The notes under the pieces are model-generated. The model was not told the origin of the DNA. It ran no database searches and saw only the letters and a list, made by a program, of their open reading frames with translations. Position numbers and translations under genes: made by a program. A stretch of 64,000 nt of DNA. Source: Branchiostoma floridae (taxonomy: Eukaryota > Chordata > Leptocardii > Amphioxiformes > Branchiostomatidae). The first letter of the stretch is position 1. Every line of letters starts with the position of its first letter. Where the stretch lies: the NCBI RefSeq assembly GCF_000003815.2, contig NC_049981.1, positions 2,431,880 through 2,495,879 of the forward strand. Direction: 5' to 3'. Shown piece by piece: positions 568 through 54,027 of this stretch.

Positions 568-3500
568 GTCCCAGCTGACTGTCCTGGTACTGCTCAACAC
601 GAGGCTCACCATGCTGCCTGATGACATCGGTGAGCTGTCGAACCTGGAGGTCCTCCGCCTCAGCTTCAACCACATCCGCACCCTCCCGCCGGGCATCGGC
701 AAGTGCCACGCTCTACGCTACCTCGCCGCAGACCACAACGCTCTACGGGAACTCCCCCGCGAGCTCGGCCAGCTCGCTGACACCCTGGTGTCTTTGTTTG
801 TCAACAACAACGAGATCGTCAAGCTGCCGTTCGAGCTGGGCTTGCTGCGGAATCTGCGGTACCTTTCGCTGGAGAACAACCCGATCGAGTTCCCGCAGCC
901 CAACATCCTGCAGCAGCCTCTGCAGCACATCCTGGCGTACCTGCGACCGTACCTGGGAGAGACGGTCGAGGACCGAACTGTCCGCGTGGTGCTCATGGGT
1001 GCGTAGAACTTGTCTGTCTGTTCTGGTGTACATGCACCCGTACCTGGGTGAGACCGTCGAAGACCAAACCATCAGCGTGGGCTCGTGGGTGTGGAATTTG
1101 GGTCCTTTTTGTTCTGTATATGACATCTTGAATATATTCATAAATCATGAATATATTCACTTGCTTGTTTACCTTATAATCTGGGTGATCGATGATGATG
1201 TACGTGTCTTACAGGTGGAAGGGGCGCAGGGAAGACGACGCTTCTACATGGGATGCAGCGTAAGTACTGGATCGGGACCGCCCCCGACCCAGAGAAAACC
1301 GTCTACATCGACATCGCAGACGTGAACCTTACTGAGATCCAGCTGCGAGTGTTTGACCTGGCCGGAGATGCAGACGTATTCCAGACGCAGCTTCCGTTCG
1401 TCCCGCGCCGCTGCCTCTACCTCGTCACCTTTGACCTGAGCGTGGAAGCTGTTGACCCTGACAGTGACCTGACGTTCCAGCTGGAGGCGTCGCTGTCGAA
1501 GATCTGCGAGCATGCACCAATGGCGTACGTAATTCTGGTCGGCACGCATGTGGACGACAAACGACTCACGAAGGACATTCTCGACTACACCTGGGGCAAG
1601 GTGAAGACAGTTCTGTACTTTCAATTTCTCAGAAATTACAGTGAATTAAATTATTGTACACTAGAAATTATTGTGTCACTGTCATTATTATTTTGAATAA
1701 TATAAAGACCAAATACATAAATGTAGTTATGTTCTTTATATCCTTTTTCATGGACACTAAATCTGTACTCCTGTTTTCTTTGTGCCTTGACTTAAGTCAC
1801 CAGACATTCCAGACAATACTATGACTTTCAATACATACATTAGGCAACAAAAAATGACATGCCTCCCTCAATAGATTGTAACCTTCTACCAAGTGTTTAA
1901 AATACTTTATATATACTTTATATACTTCATATTTTTGTGGTTGTATGTAATGTAAATGAATTGTAAGTTCAAGAACAGCATATACATGATTCAGCTAAAA
2001 GGCTGACATTTTAACGACGTAGATAAACCATTGTTTCTTTCCCTTCCCTCCAGGTGAACGCCCTGTTACAGCGAGCGCGCCCGTCACACCGTGAGAACTT
2101 CAGCGGGGAGTCGTCTATCGGGAACTGCCTGCTGTGTCAGAAGGCCGATCACCTCTACCGCGTGGCAGAGACACGGAACGGGCCCGGCTACGTCACGGTC
2201 GACAGCTTTCGACAGAGGACGCAGTCCATAGACTTAGGGCGACGCTGGAGCTTTGGGAAGGCGGACGAATTTGAGTCTCCGCACATCCTGGGGTAATTTT
2301 GCAAATTCAAGATGTGTTTAGTGAAAGTCCTCCTCGGTTAGGGACACTGAATTGCATAGGATTTAGAAAGACTAAAAAGATTCAGAGACATACAATATTT
2401 GCCCATGACATTGTAGATAGTAATGTTTGATGTTGCACTTTGTAGAACAGTCGCTTACAATGGTTAAAACAGTCATGTAACAAATGTGGGCAGTTTAAGA
2501 GACGTAAACAAACAAACAAATAAACATGTTAACAACTCCTTTTAACCGTATACTCCAAACAAATGAACATGGAAACAACCCCTCTTTAACTCGAATGTAA
2601 GTTCATCTGTGATGGTAGTCAACATTATGTTACAATTTTAAGACCATATATCTGTACCTCTTTAACTCCTCTCTGTTATAATCAGTTACTTTGAGGTGAG
2701 CGGAAAGCGACCGTGCCCCAAACCGCTCTTCAGCATCAGTAACCGGATCCACAACGAGAGCATCGAGCAGCTCAAGTACGCCATGGAAGGCTACGCGCAG
2801 CTCCTGCGTGACCCCTGCCCCAACATCCCGAAGAAATGGAGCGAGATGATCCGCTTCCTTCGCTACGAGGCGCCGCAACAGAACGCCCACCTCCAGACGC
2901 ATCCCATCATGCCCTTCGACGTGTACTGCGCCATTGCAATGACTTGTGGGATACTGTCGGAAGAGGAGATCACCGTGATGACTCAGCACTTTCACCAGCA
3001 GGGCGTGTTCCTCCACTACTCCGACTCCCCCGAACTGACCAATCACGTCTTCCTCAGCACAAAGTGGCTAACCAGTCAGCTTGGAAAGCTCCTGTCACAT
3101 GATCATGAACAGCCACCAATCAGTGCAGAAGGTTTCCTTGACCACGACATCCTGCCCAAGGTGAATGAGTAAATGGTTAATTTGGTATAGACATCCGGTA
3201 GCCAAAGGTGGAATCGCATACCACTGACAATGCAGTATAAACAGTTTGTAAATAACAGCATGGAAATCTTATTGAGTAAATTGTCATCATCAATAGACAT
3301 TAAGATCAAATATGCAAACAACAAACAATAGTGCCTACACAGATTGAATGTCTCCTCCTCATGTGCTATCTTTCAGTAATGGAAGATATGGGATGGGCAA
3401 GTTTGTTTGTTTGTTTATTCTGTATTTAACCAGGGCGAAAGCACTAGCATATCACCTGGCGGCGTTTTTCAAAGCCCCTTGGGGAGAACCCAGAACATGA

Positions 3501-8890: not shown

Positions 8891-11800
8891 ATGCCGAGAG
8901 CCCGGAAGAATGCAGGTGAGGTGCCGTGCGCGGCGTGTGGGCGGCGGGGGTCGCGCGGAGGGCCGAAGAGATGCGCAGGGGGAGGGGTGAAGGGAGGGTG
9001 GGTGCCATGTTGGTCCGAGCTCAGACGGTCTGCATGCTTGCATGAGATCGTCGCTGTGGTGGAACTGGCTCCGTGTTTACGTGATCGCGTCATGTGAGAG
9101 GTAAACAGACCCTACACGCTACAAACCACGCAAACATCGCCGCTCCAGTCGGCTATTAACGGCCTCCAACCCGTCGGAATCGCTCCCCAAAACCCGGGGT
9201 GTGTAGCTCTGGCCGCCTCTGTTTACTACAGTTTGATACCTTCTGTATAGATATGCAAACGCCCCCCTCCCCCTTCTCCATTCACACTCACCCCTCCCAC
9301 TGTATAGTTTACACAAACGTGTGTCACACATTCACACACACAAACACATCATAGAGCTGATTAGTAACACGCGTCCATTCTGTTTGGGATTCTTCCCACT
9401 AAACAGTTTGTGCAGAAACTGGTTTGTTTGGGTGTGTAAGGGGGGATTCTTTAGGTTGTTTTGTTTTCATTTGCAGGACAACTTTCACCTATTTGAGTCT
9501 GACTTTGCATTTTTTTCTCCAACATCTTCTTCAGTGATAATCAGTGATATGTAGTTTGATATTCTATATTGACCAATATAGAACAATAGTCATATTGCAA
9601 TCATATCCTATCAAATTTACTTTCTGTCTTGCAGGTATTTTTTGTTCACAAATGCATGCATCTTTCCCCACCCAAGTTTGAGTTTGTTGTATACTTGTTT
9701 ATTTTTTTGTCTACATGTGACTTTTGGTGAAATGTTGTCACTCATTTCATTTTGAAGATTTGACATTCATTAAACTGTAGATTCATTTAATTTTTCGATG
9801 TTTTTTTTCTGGAGTATTAAGAGAATGGGGATTTTCAAGATGTTTTTAGACACACAGTTTAAATGATTATGTAGTGCACAGTAGACAACTTATAAGACAC
9901 ATATTCACAGCGTTGTAAATTCACGATAAAGAAGAAACAGTAAAGATAAAACCACCGCAAACATGTCAAGATTTCCAATACTGATACTGAAAGAAAGCAT
10001 GCCCCTATATTGTCCTCTACAGCACAATACAAATTCGTCTCAAATTATCAATTCTATCAATCAGCGTCTGAAAGACATTTATTTTCAAACTTTTTTAAGA
10101 GAGATACACAATGACAACAAAGGTGGATCCGCTAAAAACAAATTGAGGTCTTACAGACTGTTCAAGTCCACTTATAATGTGGAACAATACCTGGATATTG
10201 ACAATATTCGGCACAGGACGGCCGTCACAAAACTACGAGTCAGTTGCCACAAGTTACACATCGAAACCGGAAGACATAACCGCACTCCTCTAGAACAACG
10301 AATATGTAGATACTGCAATCTAGATAAGTTAGAAGACGAACATCATTTTGTAGTAGAATGTAGTTTGTACAAGTGGGTTTATGAGCTGGTGGCCTGGGTT
10401 CGGCACAGGTTTGAATCCCGAGAGCCAGTAAACTGTTCCTACTCACCTCTTCAGCTCCCACACCAGGAATCGAACCCAGGCCTTGGTGGTGAGAGCGCCA
10501 AATCCTAACCACTAGACCACTGTTTCTACTGGTCTCTTACAGTATATTGCCCCAAACACCTTCATAGACCCTAACTCTCATCAACAAGCTTTAAGTCTGA
10601 TGGACTCTTTGATATTTTTTTAGACATTGCCTCCAGTGAGAGAAGTCTTATATTAACGTGTTAGCTAGTGCTGCATATCTAAACTCATATTCAGGTTCAG
10701 GCCAGGATTCAGGATCGGGTCTGGACTCGTAAATACAAGCAAATTACAGGGATATAATGTTAAAAAGAAAGCCACTGTTTTCGGTCATTTTTCTACATTA
10801 TGAGTTGAGTCTACCTCGTTACACTGCATAGCAATATTTACAATGTATGGATACGACTTTGTTGCGAGGTGAGGACGTCTTGAAATATGCGCACTTCCCA
10901 CCGCCGCTTGAGTTGCCCGCCATTTTATTCAACTCTCCGGTGAACCAAAGTGTGCTTTAGAACGCGTTCGGTGGTTTGCTCGAATCGTTACTGAAGTTTG
11001 TTGAAAGTCCCTGCTAAGCTCCGAAGATCTGCGACCGCAAAGGTCGATTCGGAAATCTACGGCCGTCTTACTTCCAGAAGTAAGGGCTTACTTTGGCGTT
11101 GTTGATTAGCGCTAGAAATGTGAAAAAATGATGCAGATAAGTTTGAAAAAAGTTACAAATGTCAATCTGACTGGAGATTTTAAAGTTTGAACAGAAAATT
11201 TGAAATTTGAAGTCAGTAGTTGACACAAAGGGTCAGTAATGAACACAAAATGTTGTTGTCTTTTTTACAGTGCAAATTTCACTTACTATGGAAGGTTGTA
11301 GATGGTTTAGAACAAAAAATAGTATATAAGTAAGATTGCTTTTTGCATGTCCGGACTTGGTTTCCGACATTTAGTTGTTCAATGTTCAATGTTCAATGTT
11401 TTATTTTATTAAGGTTCTCGCGGGCAAACACACATTCACCCGAATTTTGACCTTATTACACACGTCAGGCTTACCAAAGCCACACAAAACACATAATAAC
11501 AACAGCTGCATACAAACAACGACTTGTAGATTCCAGTTAACATTTGTATAACATACATAATAGATTAAAATCAACGTATTGGAAAACGGTACCGAGTTAA
11601 CAAGCAGTACAGGAATGGCTAACAACAAGTGTTAATAGCACTACTGTGTAACCTTCTTGTTGTATAGACGGATGGCGCTATGGAGGAAGGACTTGCTGAG
11701 TCTCTTAGTACGGGCTTTTGGTAAACTGATTGTCCTAGAGTTTCTAAGTGTGCGTCCCGTGGCCCCTGTTCTTGTGGGTGGAACCATGTCATGTAGGGGG

Positions 11801-14800
11801 TGGTCTTCCTTGAGCATGCGTTCAAACAGCTGTACCGCTGCCTCCTCCCGTCTGACCTTCAGTGTTGGCAAGTCGGGCACACTGCGTCTACCTCCAAGGG
11901 AGATGATGCGCAGGGCCCGGCGCTGTACCCTCTCGATGGCCAGTTCCTGCTCCTTACTGCACCCGACCAGTATCACATGGCCATACTCAAGTACTGGACG
12001 TACAAGTGACAGGTATATCTGTATCAGGTCCGTTATACTGGTACCTTGCTTCGTCAACAGACGCAGATAATATAGTCTGCGCGATGCTTTACTGATCATT
12101 GCAGAGATCTGTTCGTCGAAGGTGAGGTTCTTGTCCATGTAGAAACCTAGCCCCTTGGCACAGTCAACGGATGGGACTGGTTGGCCTCCAAGTGTGATCA
12201 TAGGTGGAATCGGAGCAGATTTGCTGAAGCAGATCTGGAGAAGTAAACTCTTCCCACCGTTCAGCGTCATCCTGTTGTCTTCTGCCCAGGAGTTAAGATG
12301 TGTAGACTCCTCTTCAACAGTTGTATCCTGATCGGCTAAAGGCACAGGAATAGTCCTCGACAGAGAAACGTCATCGGCATATCCAACATCCATTGTGTCG
12401 TTGTACACGGTGGAGCGTGTGCTCATGAACAGCAGAAATAGGTACGGAGACAGCACTCCTCCCTGGGGCACCCCTGACGTTAGGGTGCGCCAGGAGCTGC
12501 TCTCCCCGTCCATAACCACTCTCTGCCGTCGGTTCTGTAAGAAGCTGAAAATCCATCTCTGCATACGAGGGCTGACGTGAATGTCAATGACACGCTGGAG
12601 AAGCAGAGCATGGTCCACGCGATCGAACGCCTTACTCATGTCAGCGAAGATGGCTCTGACGAGCGTCGGCTTGTTTGCGTCCACAGCTGTCAGCCACGTT
12701 TGCACCATGCGAACAAGAGCCAGGGTCGTTGACGAACCCTTTGCATAGGCGTACTGGTTCTTGATGACTGACTGGATGGAGGGTAGCAGCCTTTTCAAGA
12801 TGCATCTCTCTAGAAGCTTTGCTAAGACTGAGAGGAGGGACACTGGTCTCATGTCACGAGCTTGACATGCACCGGGAAATTTTGGCACCGGGACCACGTT
12901 TGCAGACTTCCAGCCTACAGGAACTGTCCCCTCTGCGTATGAGGCGTTGAAAAGGTGGGTCACAATCGGAGCAAGGTCCTCTGCGAACTCAGTAAGAATC
13001 CAGTTAGGTAAACTGTCGGGCCCGCATGCCTTCTTGGGTTTGACGGACTTCAGAAGGCACTTGACCTCCCCAATGGAGCACAAGTCAGGACCTGGGTCAC
13101 CTAGTGGTAGGGGGAACATGTAAAGTGGAACACTTTGGCAACATTTGTTGTTTTTGTACTTGGACTTAAACATTTTTACAAGTCGAGTTCCAGTTCAAAG
13201 TTTTACGTACACAGCACTAGTGTGAGCACCCTTCAAAGGGAATCCATTTCTATTTTTACTATTAATTTTTGATATAGTATAATTAGATGCTTGTATGCAC
13301 CTGTTCATTTGAACAATATGTTAATAATATACATGTCTCTCATGTACATTAACAGTATTACCCACATGAATTTTTGATGTTGCAAGCAGCACATAAGTAT
13401 GATAATCAAACATATTTTCTTATTTTTGTCATATTTTAAAACAGTCAGGAATATGACATTACCATACCATATATCTAATTTTTACTCAGGGCTCGAAATT
13501 CAATTTTGGGATTAGGTGCACTGGTGCACCCAGCTTAAGAAATTGGGTGCACCAAAAATTTTTTGAGTGCACCACTTTAAATTGAAGTAATAACCTAGTA
13601 ATAAAACTTAGTTACAAGCTATCAAATTAGTTAAACAAGTACCATGATAGACATTTTTATTATCTTTCTAACACTTAGATGTCAAGAATATGATATATAC
13701 TAGTATACTTTGATATCTTATACACACAACCTAAGAAAATAATTGGGTGCACAGCTCCAAAAAAGCCCTGTTACTTTACCAATAGCTGTTGTTAATTGTA
13801 GTTTAGCATTTCATGTAAATTAGTATAGAATTGAGGACACCAGTAATAATGTTCATGTCTTCTATTTGCTAATAAAAGGTTATCAATTTATATCTGAAAG
13901 AGTAGGGAAGAAATGATTAATGGTTTTATGATTTGCAGAAAGTTTCATTGACTTGATAAAGGGAAATTTCTGACAACTTGCAGTTTAGAATATTATTTAA
14001 TTATAAGTAAACTCAACAGAGGAGTTACACAAGAGCTGATGTTTTGGTGACCGTCTGTCAACTTCCTCAGGCAATACTTCTGGTTCTACTCTGCACTGCA
14101 GGTATAGGTGGCGCTGCTTACAATGCAGTCCCTAACATATTGCCTTATTTACATAGTCAAGACACTTCTTAAGAATGTGATCCCACATGTGTACCATCAA
14201 ATGGCTTAGAAGTAGCATTTGCAAGTTAATTGGGCCATTTCCTTGCTTTCTACGATTTTTGATCTTAGAGTACATTTGTAGGCCTAGGCTATAGCCCAAA
14301 AGAGTCTATACCCTCCTTCAGCATAGTTCATGACTGGAGTGGATTTTCCCCAAACTCTCGCCTCACTAGAAATTTACTGGCTTTGACAAACTCCAAAATT
14401 GCAAATACTCCTCTTCCTTCTACTCATAACATTAGAGGAGTAACTGCTCTGGCAGACCCTCCAAAAATAATAAACATAAGCAAAGTGAGCACTAGCTGGT
14501 TGTGCAGAAGAATTCTACAATATCCTGCTCTGGCATACAACTATCTAAGTCCTCCTTGAAACTTGTCCACATGGAGACCATTTCCTGACTTCCCTGTAGT
14601 ATACACAGAGTGACAAAGCCTGTCATGGCTGTAACTTGTAACGAAGCACATATCCAGAACGTATTTGTGCATGCAATGATGCAAGTGAACATAAGGTGCA
14701 CTGGAGTGTCACTGACGTTTCGAAAGTCACATCCAGTTGCTTGGGTAACTGCTATGTGGCATATCTGCTTATTACCTGGATGTCTTGCCTTCATGATGTA

Positions 14801-25890: not shown

Positions 25891-28800
25891 GCTGACATCC
25901 ATGTATCTGAATCGGAGCAGAACTCGGGCCAAGATGAGCCCCTTCAAAGGGAAGCAGATGGAACCAGTTCAAACCAGTTCAGACCTGTTCCCACCCAGGA
26001 TGGAACAGGCCCCAAACCGGACAGAACCAGTCCCAAACCAGACAGAACTGGTCCCAGCCACAACGTAACCAGCCCCAACCTGAATACCACCAGTCCCAAC
26101 CAGGACAAAACCGGTCCAAACCAGTTTAGAACGGGTTCTGGCCAGTCTCAGGAGGACACAGCCAGTTCTGACTGGTCCAGCTCTGACCTGCCGCCGCTCA
26201 AACCCTCAGGAAAGAAGAGGAAACGGGAAACGTCGACGGATTCGCGAGATAGCAGCGGGACAGGACAAAGTGACACCAGCAAGGGCGACACAAGTAAGCC
26301 GTTTCTGTCACCTGTAAACAATATCAGTATCATGCATCGCTTCTGAGGTAACACTTTGTGTTACAGTGTGGCAAGATCTGAGGATTCTGTAGTTATTCCG
26401 CAGTTGCCAAAAGAAATAGTAAGAAAACTATATTCAAATGAGTTCCTGATGATGTGTGATGCAGCAAGTCAGGAAAAAAGTACTTTTGAGTCCTGCCCAA
26501 GCATGTCTCAAATGTTGTTCCACCCTTGACAACAAGTATAAATGTTTCAGGAACCCCCGAGTTGATGGGCCCCCCTCTGGCACCACCCCCCTCCAGCCTG
26601 CCCCCTGCAGCTGACGCCCCCCCTCTACAGAACCCCCCTGCGAAGAAACAGCAGCAGTATGCCTACATCTTCTCCACGGAGCTGGCAAACAAGGCAAGTA
26701 CTGTGGAGTTTTGTGTCACACATAAGACCTGGGAGCAATGTTGTATCCCAAACAACCATGGCATAACCATATGACAATGGACAGGACCAGATCTGTAATC
26801 CAGCTCGAGTTTGCTGTAACATGGTCTCTTCTAAAACGCGATACTTCTGTCCCCCTAGGCTGCAGAGGCGGTACTGCAGGGACGTGTGCAGTCCATCGTG
26901 GCGTTCCACATCGAGCACGTGACTCGGGCGCGACTCAGCCGCATGCGCCACAGCGAACAGGTGCGTGGACTTTTTCATTTCAGCTTCGTTAAAATTACAT
27001 TCATCATGTCTTAATGACTTTGAAACTGGTCAACATATTACTCTATTCATGATGTCTACATTTCCTACTGTTGTCAGTAGTTGTCTGTTTCTGTTTTCTG
27101 CCTAGCATTTTGTTTAGTGGCAGTGCTTTGGGGTTTGTTTTTTTTAAAGCTTTGTTGAACTTATGGCACCAGCTGTATCAGTTTGGTAACCCCTGGCAAC
27201 AGGTTATTAATTTGGTAACCCATGGCAACAGCTGTATCAGGTGTAGGTCGGTAACCCATGGCAACAGCTGTATCAGGTGTAGGTCGGTAACCCATGGCAA
27301 CAACTGTATCAGGTGCAGCTCGGTGACGCATGGGAACAGCTGTATTAGGTGCAGCTCGGTTACCCATGGGAACAGCTGTATCAGGTGCAGCTCGGTTACC
27401 CATGGGAACAGCTGTATCAGGTGCAGCTCAGTTACCCATGGGAACAGCTGTATCAGGTGCAGCTTGGTGGCCCAAGACACCTTAGCATCAGGTGTAGGTT
27501 GGATACAGCTGACAGGTGTCTTCCCTTTTCCAGGTGCAGTCCGGTAACCCATGGCAACAGATGCAGGCCAGCCAGATGGGTTATGGTTCAGACTTGGCAC
27601 TGAACCCATCAGCGGGCCCGGGAGGAGCGCCGCCCCAACAGCTACCCTCCAAACCACCCCCACCATACCCGGGCAGCGCCTCCCTAGAGGCAGGGGGGAC
27701 GGAGGGCCTGACACCGGAGCAGCTTCGCCATCGCCAGGAGCGGCTGATGACCATCCAGCGCATGCACAAGCTGCTGTTCCCTGAACAGGCGCAGACGGCG
27801 CCCCCTAGTGACTCCCTAGCAGCACAGCAGCAGCTGGACCTGGCCAGCCTACAGGGGCAGCCCCTGGGGCGGGGGATGCCGGGCGGCCCACCACGACCCG
27901 TGGGCCCCGGGGGACTCAACATGCAGCAGCAGCCCAGCCCGGGCAACCTACCTCCCAATCAGATGATGTCACCGCACGGAATGATGACATCACAAGCAAA
28001 CATGATGACATCACAGGGTTGGACCGACCCTTCCCAGAGTGCAGCAGCTCACAAGGTGGCCATGATGGGGCTGGGGTCGCCGGGGTCAGAGGGCATGGGT
28101 TCGCCGGGTCAGCTGGGCGATGATCAGATGTCGGCTGCGCAGATCGAGTGGCGACGGCTGGAGGAGAGTTTCTACCGCGAGAAACGGAAACGGATGCTGG
28201 AGCAGCAGATGATGCGTGGAGGGCCGTATGGGGGACAGAGGTAACTCACTCACACTCATTCACCGACTCACAGTCACTCACACTCACTCACACACTCTTT
28301 ATGCGTACACTCATTCACTCTTTCACTCCGTTGATTGATGGAGGGCTGTACAGGGTACAGAGGTACACTAACTTATTCACTCTCTTACTCATTCATCAGC
28401 ACTTACTCCTTCACATACTCTCTTACTTACCAGCTAGCTGTAAATACATACTAGCTTAACATTTAACTCAGACTACAAAATGTGGAGCACACAGAGGCAG
28501 CTGCAACCTATGAACAGTGGCAAAATTTCAGCATTTTGAAAATGAATGGCTAGTAAAAGACACTTATACGCTCTAGTGTTTCAAGTTGTCAGTTTCTTTA
28601 TTTGTCCTGTAAAATTTATTTTTCAATGTGTGCGGGGAACAGCATTGTCCAAGTTGTTTTCAGCCCATAATGCTTTACCCCTGCCTCCATTCTAGGTACC
28701 CTGGTCCGCAACAGTTCTTACCTCAGGACTATGATGGCCCCCCAGACTCCCAGGGGGCCTTGCAGACTATGCAGCCGCCACCACCGTACCAGGACCTGGC

Positions 28801-31800
28801 GCGGTTAAACCGACAGCAAACTGGCTTCTCTACCTCATTCAGTGAGCCCTACACACTGCTGCAGTCACAGCCACAGGGGGCGCCGCAGGACAGACATCCA
28901 ATGCTGCAGTCTCAGCCACAGCCACAGGGGGCGCCCCAGGAAAGACATCCAATGCTGCAGTCCCAGCCACAGCCACAGGGGGCGCCCCAGGACAGAAATC
29001 CTCTTCTGCAGCCCCAGCCACAGGGGGCACCCCAGGACAGACATCCAATGCTGCAGTCCCAACCACAGCCACAGGGGGCGCCACTGGACGGCACCTCCCC
29101 CAACTTCAGTATTAGCCAACAGCTTCAGGAAAGGGCGCGGCTATCGGCCCAGCGGGAACAGCTTCCGCAGTATGCAGGTGGGCAGCCAGCCAGACACCCA
29201 GCCCGACCACCATTTAGACACCCAACAGGACACCCAGCTGCACACCCAGGCGGACACCCACAACGCTTCATGTACCCCATGCAGGACCGCCCTCGCCCCC
29301 AGGTTTGTATCTCTTAAACAGGTATAACTATGTAGTGCACCAGCTTCTGTGTCTATATATGTATGGCTGATATGAGAACCCTTAAGAACAACACACCAGC
29401 TTCTGCATCTGTATGTGTATCTGTATAGTCGTATAAAGCTCCCTTCAACATAAAATTCCAGTGTCTATATGTGGATTTATCTGTATTTGCCTTTTGCACA
29501 ACACACCAGCTTCTATATCCATACAGCTAGTTACTCCCTTCAGCATAACACACCAGTTTCTATATCTGTATAGCCCTAATAGTAATAACCCCCCTTTAGC
29601 TTCTGTATCTTATCATGGAAGGTCATCTGTGAACCCTCTGGTATAACTCTCCAGCAATAGTTCTTGGAGAAAAATAATTTTGGAACACTTAAAAACTGGA
29701 TTGATAAATCTGACTCATGACAGTTTCTTGTTTTGATTTTTACATCCAAACAAGGTCTCCCCATCACAACAATCTGCCATGCAGAGATTGATGATGTCAC
29801 AGCAGAGTCTGATGATGTCACAGCAGGGACCGATGACATCACCAGGTATGATGTCACCGGATGGGTCGGATGGAGGGCTGCTGATGGAGTTCCCGCGGCA
29901 ACGACACCAACCTGGCAGCGATATGATGTCACCCAACTCTGCAGCCAGCCCACAGGGTCAGATGCCACTGGGGGTCAAGGGGCAGAGTTCAGGGGGAAGT
30001 GAAGGCACCCCCCCAGATAACGGTCGGTCCAGCCAGCAGTCAAACCAGCCTGAAACCAGCCTGCCCTCGAACTCACAACCCAACTCCAGACAGCCTAGCC
30101 AGATGCCCAACCAGCCCACAACCAGCCACCTTCCCAATGAGCCCACAACCGGCCAACAGCAATTGTCTACAACAACGCAACCTTCTTCCAACCAGTCTAC
30201 CACTGCCCAACCCTCAGTGAACCAGCCCTCTACCAGCCAGCAGCTGTCCAACCAGACAGTATCCAGTCCAGCCGTTACCAGCCAGCCGCCGACCTTTGCC
30301 CCCAGCTCCCTGCAACAGCTGGAGCAGCACTTTTCCAAGAGGTTCATGCCGGGCTTCGACGAGGCGCCGTTCAGTAAAACCACCGCCATTAGCACCACTA
30401 ACGCCATGACCTCCGGCTCCACCACTGTTACCATGACAACCGCCGCGGTGTCCAGTCGAACCGGGACCTCGGCTTCGGACGGTTCTGTTGCCATGGCGCC
30501 CAAGTTCAAGGCTCCCCCTCCCCCGACTAACGGCGTGAAGCCATTGGCCAGCGGTGATAACGACAATGTCGCGTCTCCACACGCTGCTGCTGAAAACAGA
30601 ACTGTGTCACCTGCTGGGTCATCCCCAGCACAGGTCAAAGGACAAGGGTCAGCAGATTCAAAGCCCATGTCCCCAGCTGTGAAGTCACCTGCAGTTCCCC
30701 AATCTGCCCAGCAGGGGTCCTCGCCAGCACCGGTGCCCTCCCCCAAACTGAAGCGGCAGCCATCTCCAGCCCTGGCAAACTCCCCGGCCGTGCAGTCTTT
30801 ACGCTCCCCCGCGCCGGGCTCGCCATTCGCTCAGCCGCTTAAGTCGCCCATGGAGAAAAAGTCGCCAAAGATTCCACCGCCATTGAAGTCACCCTCAGAG
30901 GTCAAATCTCCCATGATGCCACAGAGGCAGTCGCCAGGACTGAGGTCACCCACAATGCCTCAGGAAGCAGGCAGTGGTGTTCCGAGCTCTCCTGCTGTGC
31001 CCATCAAATCCCCCGCTGTCCTCAAGTCTCCCAGCATGCCTAGCAATTCTCCCATGATGCAGCAGGTCAAGTCGCCCATGAGGCGGCAGGAGAGTTCCCC
31101 AGTGGTTACCATGGTGAGGCAAGAAATCCCCAAAACCATGTTGCCGGAGAGGTCACAGGTCATCCCCACAACAATGCGACCTTTGTTGCCAAGGCAACCA
31201 CAGCAACTGGACACCATGAGTCAAGGTCAGAGGCTGGCAATGATGGCTGGTCAAAGTGCAATGTTAGGTCAAAGTTCAATGGGACCACAGATGTCAGTGG
31301 CCTCGTCAGGACAGTTCAGCCATCAGATGGGCGGTTTCCCCCGGCAACCATCACCAGGGCAACGCCATATGATGGGCCGTGCAGCGCAGTACCTGGCCCG
31401 TCCGCCAGGTGGCGACCTGGAGAACCAGTCGAGAGGGAACATTATGTACTCCCAGTCACAACTGGTTCAGATGCAGGCACGCTATATGGCTGGGCTGAGG
31501 CAAGACACCCCCTCACCAGCAATGGTACCTCCCGGAATGAGACAGGACACCCCCGCTGCAGCAATGGTGTCATCCCAGCCCAGGCCCACCTTTGAACCCC
31601 AGACACCTGTGGAAATTGGACCAAACACGGAGTTCGCCCTGGCTTTCCAGAAACGGGGGCCCCCCTCCCCACCACAGAACAGGTTTCCCAGCCCACAGCA
31701 CTCCCAGCCCCCACACCCTGGGGATCCAAGATACTCCCACCCTGGGGACATGCAATTCAGCGAGCCTCAACAAGTAATGGATGCAAGATATCCTCACCCC

Positions 31801-33145
31801 GGGGACAGCAGGTTCCCCCACCCTGGGGAGAGATTTCCCCAACCTGGGGAAAATAGGATCCCCCACCCAGGGGACAGCAGGTTTCCCCACCCTGGAGACA
31901 GCAGGTTCCCCCACCCAGCAGAAAGGTTCCCCCACCCTAGGGAGGAAAGGTTTTCCCACCCAGGGGACAACAGATTTCCCCACCCTGGGGATAACCGGTT
32001 TCCACATCCTGGGGTCAGCAGGTTCCCCCAGCAAGGCAACCAGAGATACCCCCACCCTGGGGAGAGATATCCCCACCCTCACCCCTCCTTAGACAGTAGG
32101 TTTCCCCACCCAGGGGAAGGCAGGTATGGGGAGGAGAGGTACCTGGCCCAGGCGGCCGGGGATAGCCGGTTTGTGGCACAGCGGATGGCAGGGATGCTGC
32201 AGGTGGGTTGGTTTTTAACAGCCAAAAAATGACTGAAATTCCACAACAGTTTACAACTCATAAGAAAGTACATTGTTTATTTGAGCTTTAAATTATCTAT
32301 CAGCACTTCACTTGGTGCTATATGGCACTTCTAGGGCTGTTTGAGCTGTTTGTTTGGTGTGCCTTATGTTCATTGTTCACATAAGAGTGTGAAGTATTGC
32401 AGGGAACTTGACAGCCTATGTTTGTGTTGTATTTCTGCAGGACGGTCTGGAGGAGGCGAGCTTGATGGACAGGTCAGTAGCACTACAGAACCTGCAGAAC
32501 ATGCTCGGTCCACCGCGATCCATGGCAGAGTCACTTAGCAACAACATGGAGGCGTTTCCAGGGCAACGACAAATGGTGGAAGAGATGAGATCGCAAGAGG
32601 CAGTGCAAAGCATGTTGGGAAGGATGATGCAGTCCCACAATGCCATGGGAAATGCTGCCATGCAAAAGTCTGGCATGCCTGCAGGTCTGTCCCATGGTGC
32701 AATGCAAGGACCAAGAATGACCACGCCCTACAGCACAGCAGATGGGGCCATGGCAGCAGGTCAAGGGTCGGTGGGAGGTCAAATGTCAGGAGGTCAAATG
32801 TCGCCAGGGGGTTTGATGTTCAAAGCGCCGGGGCCGATGGGGGATGCTGGGATGGGCGTTCCCGTACAGGACATTCAGCAGACTAGGAAGGCACAACGGT
32901 TCGTGTTGCCAACGGAAACACCAACCAGAACTCTGCAGTATTTTCCCGCAGGGAAACCTGCCGAGCGGGCGCCGCACCCGGGCATGATGCAGCCCGCTAT
33001 GAGTGCCCCGAACCTCTCGGCCAATCAGGAGCCTCAAAAGAGGATTTCTTTCTCCGAGGAGAACCTGATGCAAGCTGGGGTCAGAGCAATGAACCCTGGG
33101 TATCCTGCAATGAACCATGGGTACTCAGGCTACCCTGGACAGTAG
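25891..33145 (+). CDS. BCL9: BCL9 orthologue (Wnt transcription co-factor)
   Basis: Exons 25891-26293, 26551-26693, 26859-26960, 27534-28240, 28696-29302, 29755-32202 and 32441-33145 keep frame to TAG. The first exon ends with KKRKRET, a likely NLS that aligns with BCL9's KGKRERSISAD region. HD1 (IFSTELANKAAEAVLQGRV, then QSIVAFHIEHV) binds the Pygopus PHD finger in known BCL9 proteins. HD2 (LTPEQLRHRQERLMTIQRMH + KLLFPE) is the beta-catenin-binding helix. An HD3-like helix (AQIEWRRLEESFYREKRKR) and the C-terminal TLQYFPAGKPAE motif are also conserved. The protein acts in the nucleus linking beta-catenin to Pygopus. The HD1 intron uses a GC donor. Two exons contain coding minisatellites. The first exon has no Met and its frame closes upstream, so it must be joined to an earlier exon; the CECR2-like exon at 24298-24477 fits in phase. 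Confidence 0.9.
27171..27476 (+). repeat. 36-bp in-frame array derived from the HD2 exon 5' end
   Basis: About eight units of roughly 36 bp. The core GGTAACCCATGGCAACAG followed by CTGTATCAGGTGCAGCTC copies the acceptor and first codons of the exon at 27534 (CAG|GTGCAGTCCGGTAACCCATGG). The later units are exactly 36 bp and read VQLGYPWEQLYQ in tandem, parallel to the exon's VQSGNPWQQMQ. Confidence 0.85.
28855..29085 (+). repeat. Coding minisatellite in BCL9 (QPQGAPQxRHPMLQS)
   Basis: Five tandem copies of a Gln/Pro-rich unit, CCACAGGGGGCGCC at DNA level, inside the BCL9 exon 28696-29302. All copies stay in frame. Such tracts are expected to vary in copy number. Confidence 0.85.
31725..32125 (+). 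repeat. Coding minisatellite in BCL9 (RFPHPGDS)
   Basis: Roughly fifteen imperfect copies of an 8-residue RFPHPG-D/E-S/N unit (DNA core CCCCACCCTGGGGA) near the end of the large BCL9 exon. They are rich in His and Pro. The region upstream (about 30600-31150) is rich in KSP motifs, as in vertebrate BCL9. Confidence 0.85.
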
Positions 33146-37369: not shown

Positions 37370-37553
37370 GTCAACAGGTGTGACTCCGGTTCACCTGTGC
37401 AGCACACCTGAGGTTCCCACCTGCCGACAGGAAAGGTGTCTAAACACACCTGCCGTTCCCAACCTGCCGACAGGGGAGGTGTTTAAATCTGCGTGCAGGG
37501 GGAGAGGAGCGTCAGACGAAGCCGAGGAGTCTTCCTGTCCTGACGTGACGTCA
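37370..37553 (+). promoter_or_regulatory. Proximal promoter of peptide precursor 1
   Basis: Several CACCTG E-boxes / AGGTGT T-box-like half-sites occur in a short duplicated module (ACCTGCCGACAGG, 37421-37480), with an AT-rich TTTAAAT just downstream. A perfect CRE, TGACGTCA, at 37546-37553 overlaps the start codon. No experimental start site is known. Confidence 0.45.
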
Positions 37554-39175
37554 TGATGATCCAAGTTGGTGTCGTGCTTGTACTGGTGGGGCTGCAGCTG
37601 GTGCAGGTAGGCGGAATGTCTCCTTAAGTCTTTACGTCTTAGATCTTAAGTCTTTACGTCTTAGACCTGCAGCTGGTGCAGGTAGGCTGAACGTCGTCTT
37701 ACGTCTTTACGTCTTACATGTTAAGTCTTTACGTCTTAGACCTACAGCTGGTGCATGTAGACTGAAAGTCTTCTTACGTCTTCCGTCGTAAGTCTTTACG
37801 TCTTAAATCTTCACGTCGTATGTGTTAGACCTGCAGCAGGTGCAGGTAGGCAGGGCAGAATGTTTTCTTACGTCTTTACGGTCTTACGATTTAAGTCTTC
37901 AAGTTTGTACGTCCTAAGTCTTTACATGTTGAGGCAACTTGGAGCTGTACTTGTCCTGGTGGGGCTGCATCTGACGCAGTTAGGCAGGGCAGAGCGTTTT
38001 CGATAGTCAAGAACGAGCTGACTAAGGATACAGTGAACGTTATCCAAACCTTTTGGATCTACCCAATTGTAACATGTAATATAACCTGCCGTTTCCTCCC
38101 CAGACCAGCCCGCTCCCCGTCCATCAACCCAGACAGCTTCCGGACAATCTGCGGGAGGAGCAAGGTAAGGAAAATCACTGCGATTCACTATTAGTATTAC
38201 ACGACAGTGACTTTATCATGTTCAGTCGGCTTTACACGTTGAAACTAATGTACTAGTGTTGATCTTTCTGCCAATTTATTTTAGTGACGCTAAAAAAGAC
38301 TGATTTCAGGATGTTATTCAGTTACACAGCAGGTTGAATTGTCCTTGCATATAAATCACCGATATTGCTACACATGAGAGGAACATGTTTTAAACATTTC
38401 AGTTAAGCGTCGGCTTCAAGATCTCCAGGAGAACCTCGGCAACGGCTTTCCTAGAAAGCGACAATTCCAAGATCCCCAGGAGAACCTCGGCAACGGCTTT
38501 CCTGGAAAGCGACAATTCCAAGATCCCCAGGAGAACCTCGGCAACGGCTTTCCTGGCAAACGACAGTTTCAAGATCCCCAGGAGAGCCTCGGCAACGGCT
38601 TTCCTGGAAAGCGGCAGTTTCAAGATCCCCAGGAAAGCCTCGGCAACGGCTTTCCTGGAAAGCGACAGTTTCAGGATCTCCATGAGAACCTCGGTAACGG
38701 CTTTCCCGGCATACGGCAGTTTCAAGATCCCCAGGAGAGCCTCGGCAACGGCTTTCCCGGCAAACGGCAGGTTCAAGATCCCCAGGAGAGCCTCGGCAAC
38801 GGCTTTCCCGGAAAGCGACAGTTTCAAGATCCCCAGGAGAACCTCGGCAACGGCTTTCCTGGAAAGCGGCAATTTAAAGATCCCCAGGAGGACCTCGGCA
38901 ACGGCTTTCCCGGCAAACGACAGTTTCATGATCCCCAGGAGACCCTCGGCAACGGCTTTCCCGGCAAACGGCAGTTTCAAGATCCCCAGGAGAACCTCGG
39001 CAACGGCTTTCCCGGCAAACGGCAGGTTCAAGATCCCCAGGAGAACCTCGGCAATGGCTTTCCTGGAAAGCGGCAATTTAAAGATCCCCAGGAGGACTTC
39101 GGCAACGGCTTTCCCGGCAAACGGCAGTTTCAAGATCCCCAGGAGAGCCTCGGCAATGGCTTTCCTGGCAAGTAA
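37553..39175 (+). CDS. Multi-copy neuropeptide precursor 1 (QFQDPQENLGNGFP-amide type)
   Basis: Three exons: 37553-37606, 38104-38164, 38403-39175 (295 residues, stop TAA). Exon 1 is a signal peptide (MMIQVGVVLVLVGLQLVQ). Exon 2 is a short spacer (TSPLPVHQPRQLPDN...) ending in phase 1. Exon 3 opens with a KR site and runs through 15 perfect-length 51-bp units. The commonest unit is QFQDPQENLGNGFPGKR: KR cleavage, an N-terminal Gln that can cyclise, and a Gly that can serve for amidation, predicting a 14-residue pGlu/amide peptide. Position 8 varies (N, S, D, T). Unit 1 ends PRKR, unit 6 ends GIR, and the last unit stops after GK. This is secretory-pathway cargo for neurons or endocrine cells. 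I do not recognise the peptide family. A poly(A) signal AATAAA lies at 39715-39720. The repeat exon has no ATG of its own. Confidence 0.9.
37666..37990 (+). repeat. Tandem copies of peptide gene 1 exon 1 donor
   Basis: The exon 1 end CTGCAGCTGGTGCAG|GTAGGC is repeated at about 37668, 37742 and 37830. A fourth, longer copy (CTTGTCCTGGTGGGGCTGCA, 37950-37969) ends with a ruined donor. Stretches of TCTTAAGTCTTTACGTCTTA separate the copies. Confidence 0.85.
38411..39175 (+). repeat. 15 x 51-bp coding tandem array
   Basis: The mature-peptide array of precursor 1. All 15 units have identical length with only substitutions. Repeats such as GGCAACGGCTTTCC are almost invariant at the DNA level, which suggests recent amplification or homogenisation. 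Confidence 0.95.
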
Positions 39176-39540
39176 CCGCTTAAAAACCACAGGAAGGCGG
39201 CCGCAAAGGCTCCTTTCTTCCCTCACAATCGTTAGCCATGGTTGAAACCACTGTGAAGTCAAGGCAAGGTCTATCGCGCCACCTAGCGTGTAATGTAGAT
39301 TTTGCATTCTCGTTCTGCTAACTTCTACACTTCATTGGAACTGGAACAAAAGCAATGTAATAGGATCACTAGGCAGCTAAGTAGCTGGTATTGTGACCGC
39401 ATACATATTTTGTACCAAAATGAACATAACGTGTTGATAATTGAATAATACTAGCGGTAAACTTGAAGAAATGCTCCTTGTAAATCCCGCTCTGCACTTT
39501 GTACTGTGACTCCAAAAGTTGCTCACATCTCTAAACTTAG

Positions 39541-39612: not shown

Positions 39613-39896
39613 GCACGCACGCGCATTCGCCTCACGTAGCCAAAAAATCTGGCTAAGCACAAAATTGGTTCCGTTATGGCAGTTTCTACTTCTTCACTTT
39701 CTCAGATGGGATGTAATAAAGCATGGCATGAGCAGTGCTGGTACTGGTGGAAGTCTTCTGTTTGGCTCTGTGCGCAACGTTGTAGTATATAACAAAGTTA
39801 GGAGAGGTAGAAACGGATAGATATATAGATATCGATAGAGTAAGGAGCCGTTGGATAGAGATAGATAGACGGGGTTCAGATGTGTTTGTATGTGAG

Positions 39897-45840: not shown

Positions 45841-47731
45841 ATGGATCTGATGACGCGGGAACTCTTGTTCTTCTTCCTGGCAGCAGTTTGCGTGCAGGTA
45901 AGTCGCCATTTGGCCCGGCACGTCGGTTTCTACAGAAGGCTTTCAAGGTTCAGTGTGGCTAATGTAACTACTAGTATGGGTGAGTACCGGTACAGGTACA
46001 AAACCAGATTTTCTTGTTCGACCGATCCAGGAAAAAAAACAACGTGAGAAAAATCAGGTAGGCGTTCACGCCGCATGGTTCTTTTGGGGCTTGCAGGTCC
46101 AAGAAAGCAACAAGAGCGAAGCAGAGGAGACTTGACAGTCAAACTTAATTGAAAACAGAGACAGGTAGTGTTCTTTCCATGAGGATAGGATTTTAAAACA
46201 CTAGTGGACGTCGCATATGCATACTCTACAAAACAGAATTCTTGAATTAGTGAAATCAATGGACCATTGTTTTGAGTATCGCCCATTCCCATTGGTCTTC
46301 AAAGATAATTAGGTCCAGGTTCAAGTCCGGACCTGAACCTGATCTTCTGGACCTGAACCGGACCTGTACTATACCCAGAATTTTCTGTACCGGTACCCGC
46401 CCCTAGCTACTAGTGACTAGTATATCACAGTCAAATCTCCAAGCAGATGTGGGGTCTAGCTTGTGTTTTGCAGCACCCTGTGTGTCGTGCGCGTTTGTCA
46501 GGAATTCAGGGAGCAGAGAAAACACCGGCCGGCTGGAAGACGTACACATAGCGGCCATCGAAACAGCCGTACATCTGCTTGGAGATTTTCGGACAGCAAT
46601 ATCAGTCAAACCTCGAGCTCTTACCCGTCGTGTGTACAAAAATGTTTTTTGTTATGATTGTATTTCAGAATCGTTCTCTTTGAAGACCTTTGAAATGTCA
46701 CCCTAAAATCTACCAGTACCTGTTACACTTCATATCAAGATCGCTAGGAGTCACACCGTACATGACACGCCCCGTTGACTTTATCAATGATAAAAATAAA
46801 CAATTCTCCCCCTTTCCAGGCCAGTCCGCTGGGCAAGACTGGAGCAGACCACGATATCGATGGATTCGACTTAGCGGCCAAGGACGTGGAGCGTGAGTAT
46901 GGGGGTTTAAAAGCAACCACTGCCGGGCGGACACAGACAATTATGCAAGGGAAGTTATTTCATTATATATCTTTGAAAAACACTCATTCAGCCAGTTCAT
47001 GAATTCAGAGCTTCCCATTGTTACAGAACTACGCTTCAGGGGAATATCATTGTCGTACCTTGTTTCAAACATACAAATCTAACGTAAAGTATTCACATTA
47101 TTTAGCCTAACTGCCATTCTAGTTAGTTTTCCGTGGCCCCCCAAACTCTAGCCAGGTTGCCATCCTATTTAGTTTACCTAGGCTCCCATAAAATGTGAGG
47201 CTGAGGGGAGGGTATAGGAGCCCCAGATGGCACAATTATCGCCACCTGTCATTGTTTAAGCTTAACAGTCTCAATACTGCCCCTGACACAGTCTTCTACA
47301 GGCCCGAGAATCCGGATTCTGGAGTTCCGGAGAAGCGATGGGGAGGGGCGTGCCTGGGCTGCCCTCCGGACCCAATCCTGATATCCGGACGAGCTTCTCC
47401 GGATTCCGAATCCACCTTACCGGAAAATCCACACCACGAGAGTCCGGATTCCGGAGTTCCAGAGAAGCGGTGGGGAGGAGCTTGTCTCGGCTGCCCTCCG
47501 GACCCAATCCTTATATCCGGGCGGGCTTCTCCGGATTCCGGAACCAACTTACCGGAAAATCCGCACCACGAGAATCCGGATTCCGTACCACAAGAGGTTC
47601 CGGAGAATCTACAGCCAGTGGCTCCGGATTCCGGGCGATCGGATGTGCCACAGAAACGGTGGGGAGGGGAGTGCCTCGGTTGCCCACCCGATCCCATCAT
47701 TCTCCTGGGGAAGAGAAAACGATCCGCGTAG
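45841..47731 (+). CDS. Neuropeptide precursor 2 (WGGxCLGCPPDP-amide type)
   Basis: Three exons: 45841-45897, 46820-46892, 47292-47731 (189 residues, stop TAG). Exon 1 is a signal peptide (MDLMTRELLFFFLAAVCVQ). Exon 2 is a spacer (ASPLGKTGADHD...). Exon 3 holds three related peptides after EKR or QKR sites: WGGACLGCPPDPILISGR twice and WGGECLGCPPDPIILLGKRK once. The Gly before basic residues predicts amidation, and CLGC predicts a tight disulfide. Acidic spacers rich in PENPDSG separate them. The ATG at 45841 was chosen because it begins the hydrophobic segment; an upstream in-frame ATG (45673) would bury it. The acceptor at 47290-47291 was chosen on phase. Exon design matches precursor 1. I do not recognise the peptide family. 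A poly(A) signal AATAAA lies at 48521-48526. Confidence 0.85.
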
Positions 47732-50924: not shown

Positions 50925-53900
50925 TCACTGTGGAGAACCTCTTAATTGGAATTCCACACGAATCCAGTGATCTTTGATTCTACCAATGGGATGTTGTGGA
51001 CTCTTCAGTATGAAGCGTAGAAGTGCATCAGTGCGTCTATTAAAGTGTATCGCACACATGACAGGGTCTGATCTCATTAGGTTCCATTTGTCTTGTTGTG
51101 GTAATGCTTTAGCTTCTTCATAGGTCAGGTCAGGATTCAGGGTCATGAACAATTCTGGCCAGTTTAAATCATTAGCAGACACAGTGACAAACCATGTTGG
51201 TGGTCCAATAGTGTTTATTTTTGCTAGCAAGTTTAGCAGTTGGTCCTTGAAGTAAGCTGCTGTTCCACGTATATTCTTCATAAAAGTGTATGATGTGCTT
51301 TCAACATGTTGATCAATTTCATGATGCAGATCGCCTGCTGTTAGTGGCTGTGCTATGGATTGTGATCTAACATTACTCTGCTTTTGCATTCTACATACAA
51401 TGGATATCTGACTGTACAATTTCTTGATTTCATACGAGTTCAAGGCAAAGAAGAGCCATGGGATGTTTTTTCTCCAGCAATCATTGATATTGAGCAAACG
51501 TGATTGGAAGTACTGTAAGTCTGTTAGTTGTACATCACGCGTCTGTTTGAAGCCATTTTTACCATATGGGTATAACTGTGGAAAACAGTGTTCCTCAAGA
51601 TCAGTCTCTTTAAATATGCTTTGTGGTGGTGATGTTTCACGTGGTAGTGATATCACTGGGACATTGTCTGTTACATTCTGCAACAGAGATTGTAACTGGA
51701 CATTTGGATTAATGTAGTTACAGGGAAAAGCTGAGAGTTCTTGGACAGTAGAAGGTGCACTTGAGAAGTCTGGTTCATTGGCGTCTGTGATCATTGGATT
51801 GAATTCACTTGACTTTTTTACCCAGTTTTCAAAGGTAGCTATGTTCACATGTGAATATAGATGATTATGCGTTACCAGCCATGTAAGAGCTTCATGCATT
51901 TTGGAAAATCGTACAATGTGTTGTGGGTCTGTTCTTTGTGTTTTACTTTCATTTGTCTGACAAGGGTGTACTATTACTAGCCCAGCTGTATCTTGGCTAT
52001 GTGGTAACAGTTGGCAAGTAGTTTCAATGTTGGTAGGGAAACTTATGGCTTGACCTTGTTCACCAAATTGTCCACCTGGTAATACAATTAACTTGATGAA
52101 GGTGTATTTCAAACTGACAAGTCTTGTTTCCATTCTACTGAGTTGTTTCAGGCATGATGGAATGTCACCTGGATCCATATTGTTAGTCCAAGCATTGGGT
52201 ATGGGTTTGTCTTTTTCAAGACAAATCAAACACTTTGAACAGAGATGATGTTGACCAGAAATATCATTGACTATTTTGTCTATGACAGCATTGTTGCAGT
52301 TTCGCACTTGGTCATGAAATAACAATTGTCTACATATGCTACAGTAGTACTTTGGCTGCTGTTTTATATAGCAATGAAATGCAGGAAAGTCTGATTTGTA
52401 TTGTTCACTGGTATAGTCTATGCTATGTTCTCTAACATATTTTGTAGCCAATGTTTTTCTCACTCTATCACAGTTTTTCCTCTGTCGTTGCGTTTTTTCT
52501 TGTGAAGATTCTTGTTCAGCTCTTTTTGCTTTGCTAGCTTTGCGTGATGTCCTTTGTTTTGCAAGTCTTTCGGCTTTTTGCTCAGGGGTCTCATTTGCTT
52601 GTTTTGCTTTGTATGATGCTCTTCGTTTTGCAAGTCTATCGTCTTTTTGCTCAGGGGTCTCATTTGCTCGTTTTGCTCTTTCCTGTGCAAGTCTATCTGC
52701 TTTTTGCTCAGTTGTCTCATCTGCCTGTTTTGCTTTGTATGAAGCTCTTCGTTTTGCAAGTCTTTCATCTTTTTGCTCACGGGTCTCATTTGCTTGTTTT
52801 GCTTTGTATGATGTTCTTCGTTTTGCAAGTCTTTCATCTTTTTCCTCAGGGGTCTCATTTGCTCGTTTTGCTTTATATGATGCTCTTTGCTGTGCTGCTT
52901 TTTGCTCACAGGTCTCATTTGCTTTCTTTGCTTTGTATGATGTTCTTTGTTCTGCAAGACTCTCTGTCTTCTGTTGATAGGTTTGTTTTTCTTGTTTGTC
53001 CTTGCATATTGCGCTTTGGATTGCAAGACCTTGCACTTTTTTATCATTTAAATTTGATGCTGCATTTGGTGACATTACTAATTGATTCAAGAGGCCTTCA
53101 TTCCTGTTCTCTGGCATAGCACTTGGATGTTTGCTTGTGGTGCATGGCACAATGTTTTTCCCAGTACTTTGGTTACAATGTGGTGCAAATGGAAATGCTG
53201 TGTTTGGTTGTTGTAGGTTCTCTTTCGTAGATACAAACTCTGGTTTAACCAAGGTGTATGTGTGTTGTTGTTGAACTTGAAAGCAGTTTTCTGACTCAAT
53301 CATAGAAGAAACATTGCTAGTCAGATTGATAATGTGTATACCAGTAGGTTCAACTGATAAGAAAACATTTTCTGCTTGTACTGGGACAACCTCAAAATTG
53401 CATGTTGTGTTCCAGTTAAGTTGTTGCAAGAATGAAACTAGATTGCTGTTTGAACTGTGCATGCTTAAAGTAGAAGTGCCATGGCTATCTGGCAATGCTG
53501 TTATGGGACTTCTGGCATGTGAGTCATAAACAAAATACTTGTTATCAGCGTGCAACAATGCTACTGTTGAACCAGTTATTCCATGTGCTGTTATGAAAAG
53601 ACAAGTGTTGGATTCAGCAAATGCTGCTTCTAGGGCTTTCTTTAAGGTGTAATAAGGATAGACTGCTTCTGTGGCAAATATGTCTCCAGTGTAAGACTCT
53701 TTTATTGATACACGTACAGTATTGTTGTAAAGTTGCAAATAGTCTGGAATATCATCAACGGAGAGGAACTCCACACCAGATCTTAGTGATGGTTTTATGT
53801 AGGTGTATAGTGCATCTCCTTGAAAAAGTACACCATCAAGGTCTGTACTTGTCCAGGTAATTGCTTGTCTGCAAGTACTGTGGTTAACAACTGCCATTAA

Positions 53901-53990
53901 AGCATTTGCAGTGCATTGTTTGCCTCTATTATCTCCACTGAAAATGATGTCACCTTGGTGGTATTTTCCCGATAAAATAGATTCACACAT
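50925..53990 (-). CDS. Helitron-like Rep N-terminal protein with cysteine-protease head (truncated)
   Basis: 1,021 residues. Residues 1 to about 190 resemble the papain-like protease domain of the peptidase C76 / herpes tegument type: GKQCTANALMAV with the likely catalytic Cys, WTSTDLDGVLFQGDALY, and YFVYDSHAR with the likely His/Asp. A Lys/Arg-rich region of 24-residue repeats (SYKAKQANETPEQKAERLAK pattern) follows, then a Cys-rich segment (YYCSICRQLL; LCSKCLICL). The end matches the Helitron_like_N domain: FPQLYPYGKNGF, MKNIRGTAAYF, GPPTWFVTVSANDLNWPEL, RVEFQLRGSP. The frame stops right after RGSP, just before the region where the HUH endonuclease motif is expected. The protein would serve rolling-circle transposition if complete. 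Confidence 0.85.
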   Translation of the reverse strand: MCESILSGKYHQGDIIFSGDNRGKQCTANALMAVVNHSTCRQAITWTSTDLDGVLFQGDALYTYIKPSLRSGVEFLSVDDIPDYLQLYNNTVRVSIKESYTGDIFATEAVYPYYTLKKALEAAFAESNTCLFITAHGITGSTVALLHADNKYFVYDSHARSPITALPDSHGTSTLSMHSSNSNLVSFLQQLNWNTTCNFEVVPVQAENVFLSVEPTGIHIINLTSNVSSMIESENCFQVQQQHTYTLVKPEFVSTKENLQQPNTAFPFAPHCNQSTGKNIVPCTTSKHPSAMPENRNEGLLNQLVMSPNAASNLNDKKVQGLAIQSAICKDKQEKQTYQQKTESLAEQRTSYKAKKANETCEQKAAQQRASYKAKRANETPEEKDERLAKRRTSYKAKQANETREQKDERLAKRRASYKAKQADETTEQKADRLAQERAKRANETPEQKDDRLAKRRASYKAKQANETPEQKAERLAKQRTSRKASKAKRAEQESSQEKTQRQRKNCDRVRKTLATKYVREHSIDYTSEQYKSDFPAFHCYIKQQPKYYCSICRQLLFHDQVRNCNNAVIDKIVNDISGQHHLCSKCLICLEKDKPIPNAWTNNMDPGDIPSCLKQLSRMETRLVSLKYTFIKLIVLPGGQFGEQGQAISFPTNIETTCQLLPHSQDTAGLVIVHPCQTNESKTQRTDPQHIVRFSKMHEALTWLVTHNHLYSHVNIATFENWVKKSSEFNPMITDANEPDFSSAPSTVQELSAFPCNYINPNVQLQSLLQNVTDNVPVISLPRETSPPQSIFKETDLEEHCFPQLYPYGKNGFKQTRDVQLTDLQYFQSRLLNINDCWRKNIPWLFFALNSYEIKKLYSQISIVCRMQKQSNVRSQSIAQPLTAGDLHHEIDQHVESTSYTFMKNIRGTAAYFKDQLLNLLAKINTIGPPTWFVTVSANDLNWPELFMTLNPDLTYEEAKALPQQDKWNLMRSDPVMCAIHFNRRTDALLRFILKSPQHPIGRIKDHWIRVEFQLRGSPQ
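52528..52965 (-). repeat. Coding 72-bp repeats in Helentron ORF
   Basis: About six tandem units of roughly 72 bp encode a 24-residue KAKxANETPEQKxERLAKRRxSY motif, predicted to be helical and highly charged. Confidence 0.85.
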
Positions 53991-54027
53991 TGTTCACAAT
54001 ATATGTGTTCTTTGCTTGACTTTATTT

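Follow-up and report, generated by a model that had tools for sequence, protein, structure and literature searches.

Position 37553 to 39175 (plus strand) of a 64,000-nucleotide stretch of Branchiostoma floridae DNA, hereafter the window, raises two questions: whether it encodes a peptide precursor and, if so, to which known family the peptides belong. On the evidence of exon structure and repeat composition, the locus is very probably a three-exon gene for a prepropeptide of the multi-copy amidated neuropeptide type. Its predicted secreted product appears to give rise to roughly twelve short, hormone-like peptides of nearly the same sequence, which we could match to no named vertebrate peptide.

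Organization of the probable precursor gene

Joining of the exons, starting from the ATG at 37553, yielded a coding sequence of 888 nt (295 amino acids and a stop codon). The gene and its repeat units are laid out as follows.

37553..37606, plus strand: exon 1, MMIQVGVVLVLVGLQLVQ, signal-peptide-like; donor CAG/GTAGGC, phase 0
37926..37986, plus strand: exon 1 duplicate within intron 1, diverged, MLRQLGAVLVLVGLHLTQ; donor GT lost (CAGTTAGGC)
38104..38164, plus strand: exon 2, spacer TSPLPVHQPRQLPDNLREEQ, 61 nt; acceptor CCCCAG, donor AAG/GTAAGG, phase 1
38403..39175, plus strand: exon 3, VKR followed by 15 units and the stop codon TAA
38411..38461, plus strand: unit 1, degenerate, RLQDLQENLGNGFPRKR; Arg first and no N-terminal Gln, ending in RKR without an amidation Gly
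38462..38665, plus strand: units 2-5, QFQDPQE[N/S]LGNGFPGKR
38666..38716, plus strand: unit 6, QFQDLHENLGNGFPGIR; ends in GIR, dibasic site lost
38717..39124, plus strand: units 7-14, all ending in GKR
39125..39175, plus strand: unit 15, QFQDPQESLGNGFPGK followed by the stop codon; ends in GK-stop
39715..39720, plus strand: candidate polyadenylation signal AATAAA

This confirmed the signal-like exon, spacer exon and 15 gap-free 17-residue units described in a sequence-only reading of the locus, and nothing was found to contradict the anatomy given there (KR-bounded repeats, N-terminal Gln and C-terminal Gly). Scored with a splice-donor weight matrix, the donors of exons 1 and 2 ranked in the top 0.8% and 0.1%, respectively, of all GT sites in the window. 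The precursor combines a signal sequence, judged from the hydropathy of its N-terminus alone, with dibasic-bounded repeated peptides and an amidation Gly, as is expected of the general class; upstream of the N-terminal hydrophobic stretch there is no positive charge at all, which counts against our preferred explanation.

Within intron 1 (37592-37986), tandem copies of the 3' end of exon 1 were observed, with an identical CAG/GTAGGC donor at 37682 and at 37846. The diverged copy listed above matches exon 1 at 38 of 48 bases over 37939-37986; intron 1 holds a duplicated signal exon.

The exon-3 array has a period of 51 (14.8 copies, 89% matches, no indels); each of its 15 units measures exactly 51 nt, and the stop codon closes the final one. 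D4, E7 and the GNGFP stretch (G10, N11, G12, F13 and P14) are invariant in all 15 units, while positions 2, 3 and 8 are the most varied in kind; position 2 is F in 12 units, L in one and V in two. Among units 7-14, V replaces F2 in units 8 and 13, whereas Q3 is replaced by K in units 10 and 14 and by H in unit 11. Of the 14 internal unit ends, 13 retain the dibasic KR. The two commonest peptide forms, QFQDPQENLGNGFP and QFQDPQESLGNGFP, occur in four copies each, namely the exact peptide of the sequence-only reading (4) and its Ser-8 form (4), and seven further forms occur once each.

Of the claims made earlier about the units, a Gln at the first position held in 14 of the 15 and failed in unit 1, which begins with Arg, whereas the description 'mostly GKR last' was borne out by 12 units, the exceptions being unit 1 (RKR), unit 6 (GIR) and unit 15 (GK-stop). 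From these exceptions, 13 amidated ends are therefore predicted (units 2-5, 7-14 and 15), in keeping with the 'about a dozen' copies proposed. Unit 6 is probably left fused to its neighbour, unit 7, or else is cut at its single Arg, and in unit 15 amidation could still follow trimming of the Lys.

Evidence on coding constraint in the array, and its genomic surroundings

When 14 full units were compared with their consensus, the proposed frame showed 35 synonymous and 22 nonsynonymous differences, against 4/53, 5/52, 9/48, 28/29 and 7/50 in the other five frames; these counts include repeatedly any change common to several units. With each distinct variant taken once, 10 synonymous and 13 nonsynonymous changes remained where 6.4 synonymous ones were expected (p = 0.04), nonsynonymous changes still being in the majority, which counts against our explanation. 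Since duplication or conversion links the units to one another, their mutual likeness is no independent evidence, and because they are not independent of each other the synonymous excess gives modest support. Whether the constraint is concentrated in the C-terminal half varies with the cut, a point against our explanation: synonymous/nonsynonymous counts were 6/2 for codons 10-17 against 4/11 for the rest (p = 0.04) and, for codons 10-14, 3/0 against 7/13 (p = 0.07), both cuts having been picked post hoc. Overall, coding constraint on the array is supported by these counts, though not overwhelmingly.

The length of the open frame is weak evidence by itself, because a stop-free 51-nt repeat is open in two other frames as well; a minus-strand open frame at 38399-39331 and a plus-strand one at 38394-39245 were rejected as by-products of the repeat. 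The same property, together with the degenerate state of units 1 and 6, would suit a non-coding minisatellite or a dead gene whose frame merely happens to be open, an account made very improbable by the frame-specific synonymous excess, the in-phase splice sites and the signal-like first exon.

A search of the 513 Mb genome with the array as query gave three matches, all at the array itself, and thus no paralogue among the 65 best candidates scored. The pattern Gly-Phe-x-Gly-Lys-Arg-Gln was found 28 times in the genome, 12 times in the array and 16 times scattered (seven of these being one identical sequence), as compared with eight matches for the reversed control pattern; no second cluster was present among the 28. 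No comparable GKR-rich array was found within 40 kb on either side of the window.

Further elements were observed in the window. A second precursor-like gene lies on the plus strand at 45841-47731, 6.7 kb downstream of the 15-copy precursor, and comprises:

45841-45897, plus strand: signal-like exon, MDLMTRELLFFFLAAVCVQ
from 46820, plus strand: spacer exon, ASPLGKT...
within 45841-47731, plus strand: last exon, containing two copies of KRWGGACLGCPPDPILISGR as well as KRWGGECLGCPPDPIILLGKRKRSA

It is predicted to encode amidated peptides with a Cys-x-x-Cys pair, although its exon 2/3 junction is ambiguous. The frame of its last exon had no Pfam match, and the gene corresponds to one significant locus in the genome. 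Kinship of the two precursor genes was considered, but it is not established since plus-strand DNA matches between them reach at most 17 bases and they have in common only the exon junction VQ/(T/A)SPL. The cAMP response element TGACGTCA occurs three times in the window against 0.8 expected:

36510: TGACGTCA, 1.0 kb upstream of the 15-copy precursor gene
37546: TGACGTCA, touching the start codon of the 15-copy precursor gene
45705: TGACGTCA, 136 bases upstream of the start codon of the second precursor-like gene

Little weight is given to these sites because nine more lie in the 80 kb flanks. A BCL9-type gene (27513-33145, plus strand) precedes the precursor by about 4.4 kb, with PF11502 matched in the frame 27513-28241 and its extent to 33145 judged by eye from open frames. 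At 482-3172 (plus strand), three consecutive frames matched leucine-rich repeat, Roc and COR-A models, which marks a gene for a ROCO-type protein. Two minus-strand open frames were assessed by eye, one at 11641-13194 resembling a retroelement reverse transcriptase and one at 50925-53993 (1022 residues with an internal repeat) probably encoding a mobile-element protein.

Relationship to known peptide families

In the Pfam scan of the precursor no family exceeded the cut-off, a single match to DUF5338 falling below it, and a PDB search with the first 109 residues gave no match. Of six peptide motif strings, five occurred nowhere in the literature searched, and the sixth, FQDPQE, occurred in 13 papers which, to judge from title and opening of the abstract, deal with unrelated proteins. 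The statement that the precursor matches no named chordate family is uncontradicted, and that it is undescribed is supported only within the literature searched (supplementary files, Jekely 2013 and Mirabeau and Joly 2013 lying outside its scope). A resemblance to the pedal peptide/orcokinin (PP/OK) family, known from protostomes and echinoderms, had, however, been missed: among 11 families compared, the predicted peptide is closest to PP/OK.

Members of this family, such as Aplysia pedal peptide, crayfish orcokinin, starfish SMP and sea cucumber AjPPLN2, share with the lancelet precursor a short peptide repeated many times between KR sites, a hydrophobic residue near the N-terminus and, in several of them, Leu followed by Gly-Phe near the C-terminus, and some deuterostome members are amidated. 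According to the parts of PMC9793003 consulted, the family is characterized by a hydrophobic residue near the N-terminus, an Asp-X-Leu core in echinoderm members and an aromatic residue near the C-terminus. The first of these is present in the lancelet units (F2 in 12 of 15, otherwise L in one and V in two), as is the last (GFP in 15 of 15), whereas Asp-X-Leu (X being Pro or Thr) is absent from the peptide, which has Asp-Pro-Gln and Glu-Asn-Leu instead and further differs in its pGlu start, C-terminal Pro-amide and chordate host. In excerpts from the literature, the hydrophobic position 2 and C-terminal Gly-Phe-x find counterparts in orcokinin NFDEIDRSGFGFN and pedal peptide PLDSVYGTHGMSGFA (PMC5656890), L-x-x-G-F in starfish DPLSAGFTD and LSSGFH (PMC5814872, PMC5656890) and IGNG in a bryozoan member (PMC4990251). 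Amidation is no objection to a PP/OK assignment, because sea cucumber members and two from sea urchin are amidated (PMC6586643, in part).

The resemblance was quantified by shuffling the peptide 4000 times against the 11 families, the control families comprising 2 to 5 members each, and PP/OK being represented by seven groups (19 peptides copied from papers; AjPPLN2d, one FDSIG variant, two bryozoan PEP variants and some starfish type-2 peptides were left out). Shuffled peptides scored as well in 14 cases for PP/OK, the best of the 11 families, in 90 for orexin/allatotropin, in 151 for bombesin, in 190 for NPS/NG/CCAP and in 253 for SIFamide/NPFF; with any one PP/OK group omitted the number ranged from 6 to 37 of 4000. 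In a similarity test, the mean similarity of the candidate to the seven groups exceeded that of all 50 control peptides (10 of 60 with fewer than eight residues having been dropped before the count) and of all 19 held-out PP/OK members, the latter being scored on six groups and the candidate on seven.

These results would be explained if the gene were a far-diverged PP/OK precursor, making it the first from a chordate, with peptides that would target muscle or cilia in the manner of PP/OK peptides, a possibility that we regard as tentative and doubtful. The family was picked after the resemblance had been seen, its reference set of seven groups exceeds those of the other families, the p-value corrected for 11 families is ∼0.04, and orexin/allatotropin also came to 90 of 4000 shuffles. 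The nematode NLP-14/15 peptides alone gave a non-significant 866 of 4000, and in the similarity test two of the four scored above the candidate and two below. Nor did a starfish-type query reveal a convincing precursor elsewhere in the genome: there were 30 weak matches (best E 0.03), and three such loci (L010-L012), when translated and inspected by eye, were other repeats without regular KR-bounded peptides. Because the echinoderm Asp-X-Leu motif is missing and the nematode peptides alone are non-significant, the peptide is not filed as a PP/OK member, the link being kept as a bold and rather unlikely reading. Probably, the gene instead encodes a lineage-specific orphan neuropeptide of no PP/OK ancestry, its likeness being a convergence of short motifs. 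This is consistent with the Pfam and PDB results, with the ease of chance matches for short peptides and with the statement in the part consulted of PMC5656890 that PP/OK peptides were, as of 2017, unidentified in hemichordates, cephalochordates, urochordates and vertebrates; against it stands the rank of the peptide above all 50 controls. The portions covered of PMC5860471, PMC4772807, PMC5818035 and PMC6156427 report no lancelet PP/OK peptide, and the literature basis also took in parts of PMC5627052, PMC3890597, PMC7642236, PMC8557429 and PMC9598280. As of 2017 no PP/OK receptor was known, as stated in a section of PMC5656890, and no paper on one was found in the literature searched.

Membership of the NG-type (NPS/CCAP) or TRH-type precursors is extremely improbable. 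Asn-Gly-Phe near the amidated end recalls NGFFYamide, and the shuffle result of 190/4000 points the same way, yet the 15-copy precursor gave no Pfam match to neurophysin, a domain of the lancelet NG precursor, and its peptide has a long N-terminal extension. Moreover, the B. floridae NG precursor carries two SFRNGVG copies (PMC6156427, in part), and two FRNGVGK sites matching this prediction were found 153 nt apart on a contig (C4) other than that of the array. TRH-type precursors likewise combine many copies with a pGlu start and an amide end, Pro-amide in the chordate forms, but their peptides have three or four residues against 14 here, and a TRH-type precursor of lancelet is already published; the part consulted of PMC4772807 gives pQHP-amide for vertebrates, pQSP-amide for lancelet and pQWYT-amide for starfish. 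The shuffle test gave 961/4000 for TRH and the Pfam scan of the precursor showed no TRH match, so that this assignment too was rejected. A genome scan with the TRH model PF05438 matched nowhere, controls included, and hence says nothing on TRH.

Predicted processing and significance

The N-terminus of the precursor would give entry to the secretory pathway, and prohormone convertases would cut after the KR pairs seen between units. A carboxypeptidase would take off KR, the exposed Gly would be converted to a C-terminal amide at the 13 predicted usable ends, and the N-terminal Gln, found in 14 of 15 units, would cyclise to pGlu. Peptides of 14 residues would result, chiefly pGlu-FQDPQE(N/S)LGNGFP-amide (predicted mature form pGlu-FQDPQENLGNGFP-amide), with a fixed C-terminal GNGFP-amide, a variable middle and a calculated [M+2H]2+ of 786.858 or 773.352 for the amidated 14-mer. 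Their most likely role would be that of a neuropeptide or gut hormone signalling via a G-protein-coupled receptor, which they would presumably bind with the constant GNGFP-amide end. Each of these steps of processing and activity is deduced from established prohormone biology. The acidic, Gln-rich composition of the peptide might also fit a secreted repeat protein, or an epithelial or gland peptide without a signalling role, but this is improbable given that nearly every unit has an amidation Gly and an N-terminal Gln beside the KR sites, an arrangement typical of signalling peptides.

A new multi-copy peptide precursor is thus a sound prediction for this locus, ordinary in kind and unusual for want of a clear family, its peptide being predicted to be either lineage-specific or a far-diverged relative of PP/OK. 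The latter would be a candidate link to a family unreported from chordates in the literature covered. If the peptide is an orphan, the neuropeptide set of the lancelet would gain one defined, easily synthesised ligand and a target for receptor pairing.
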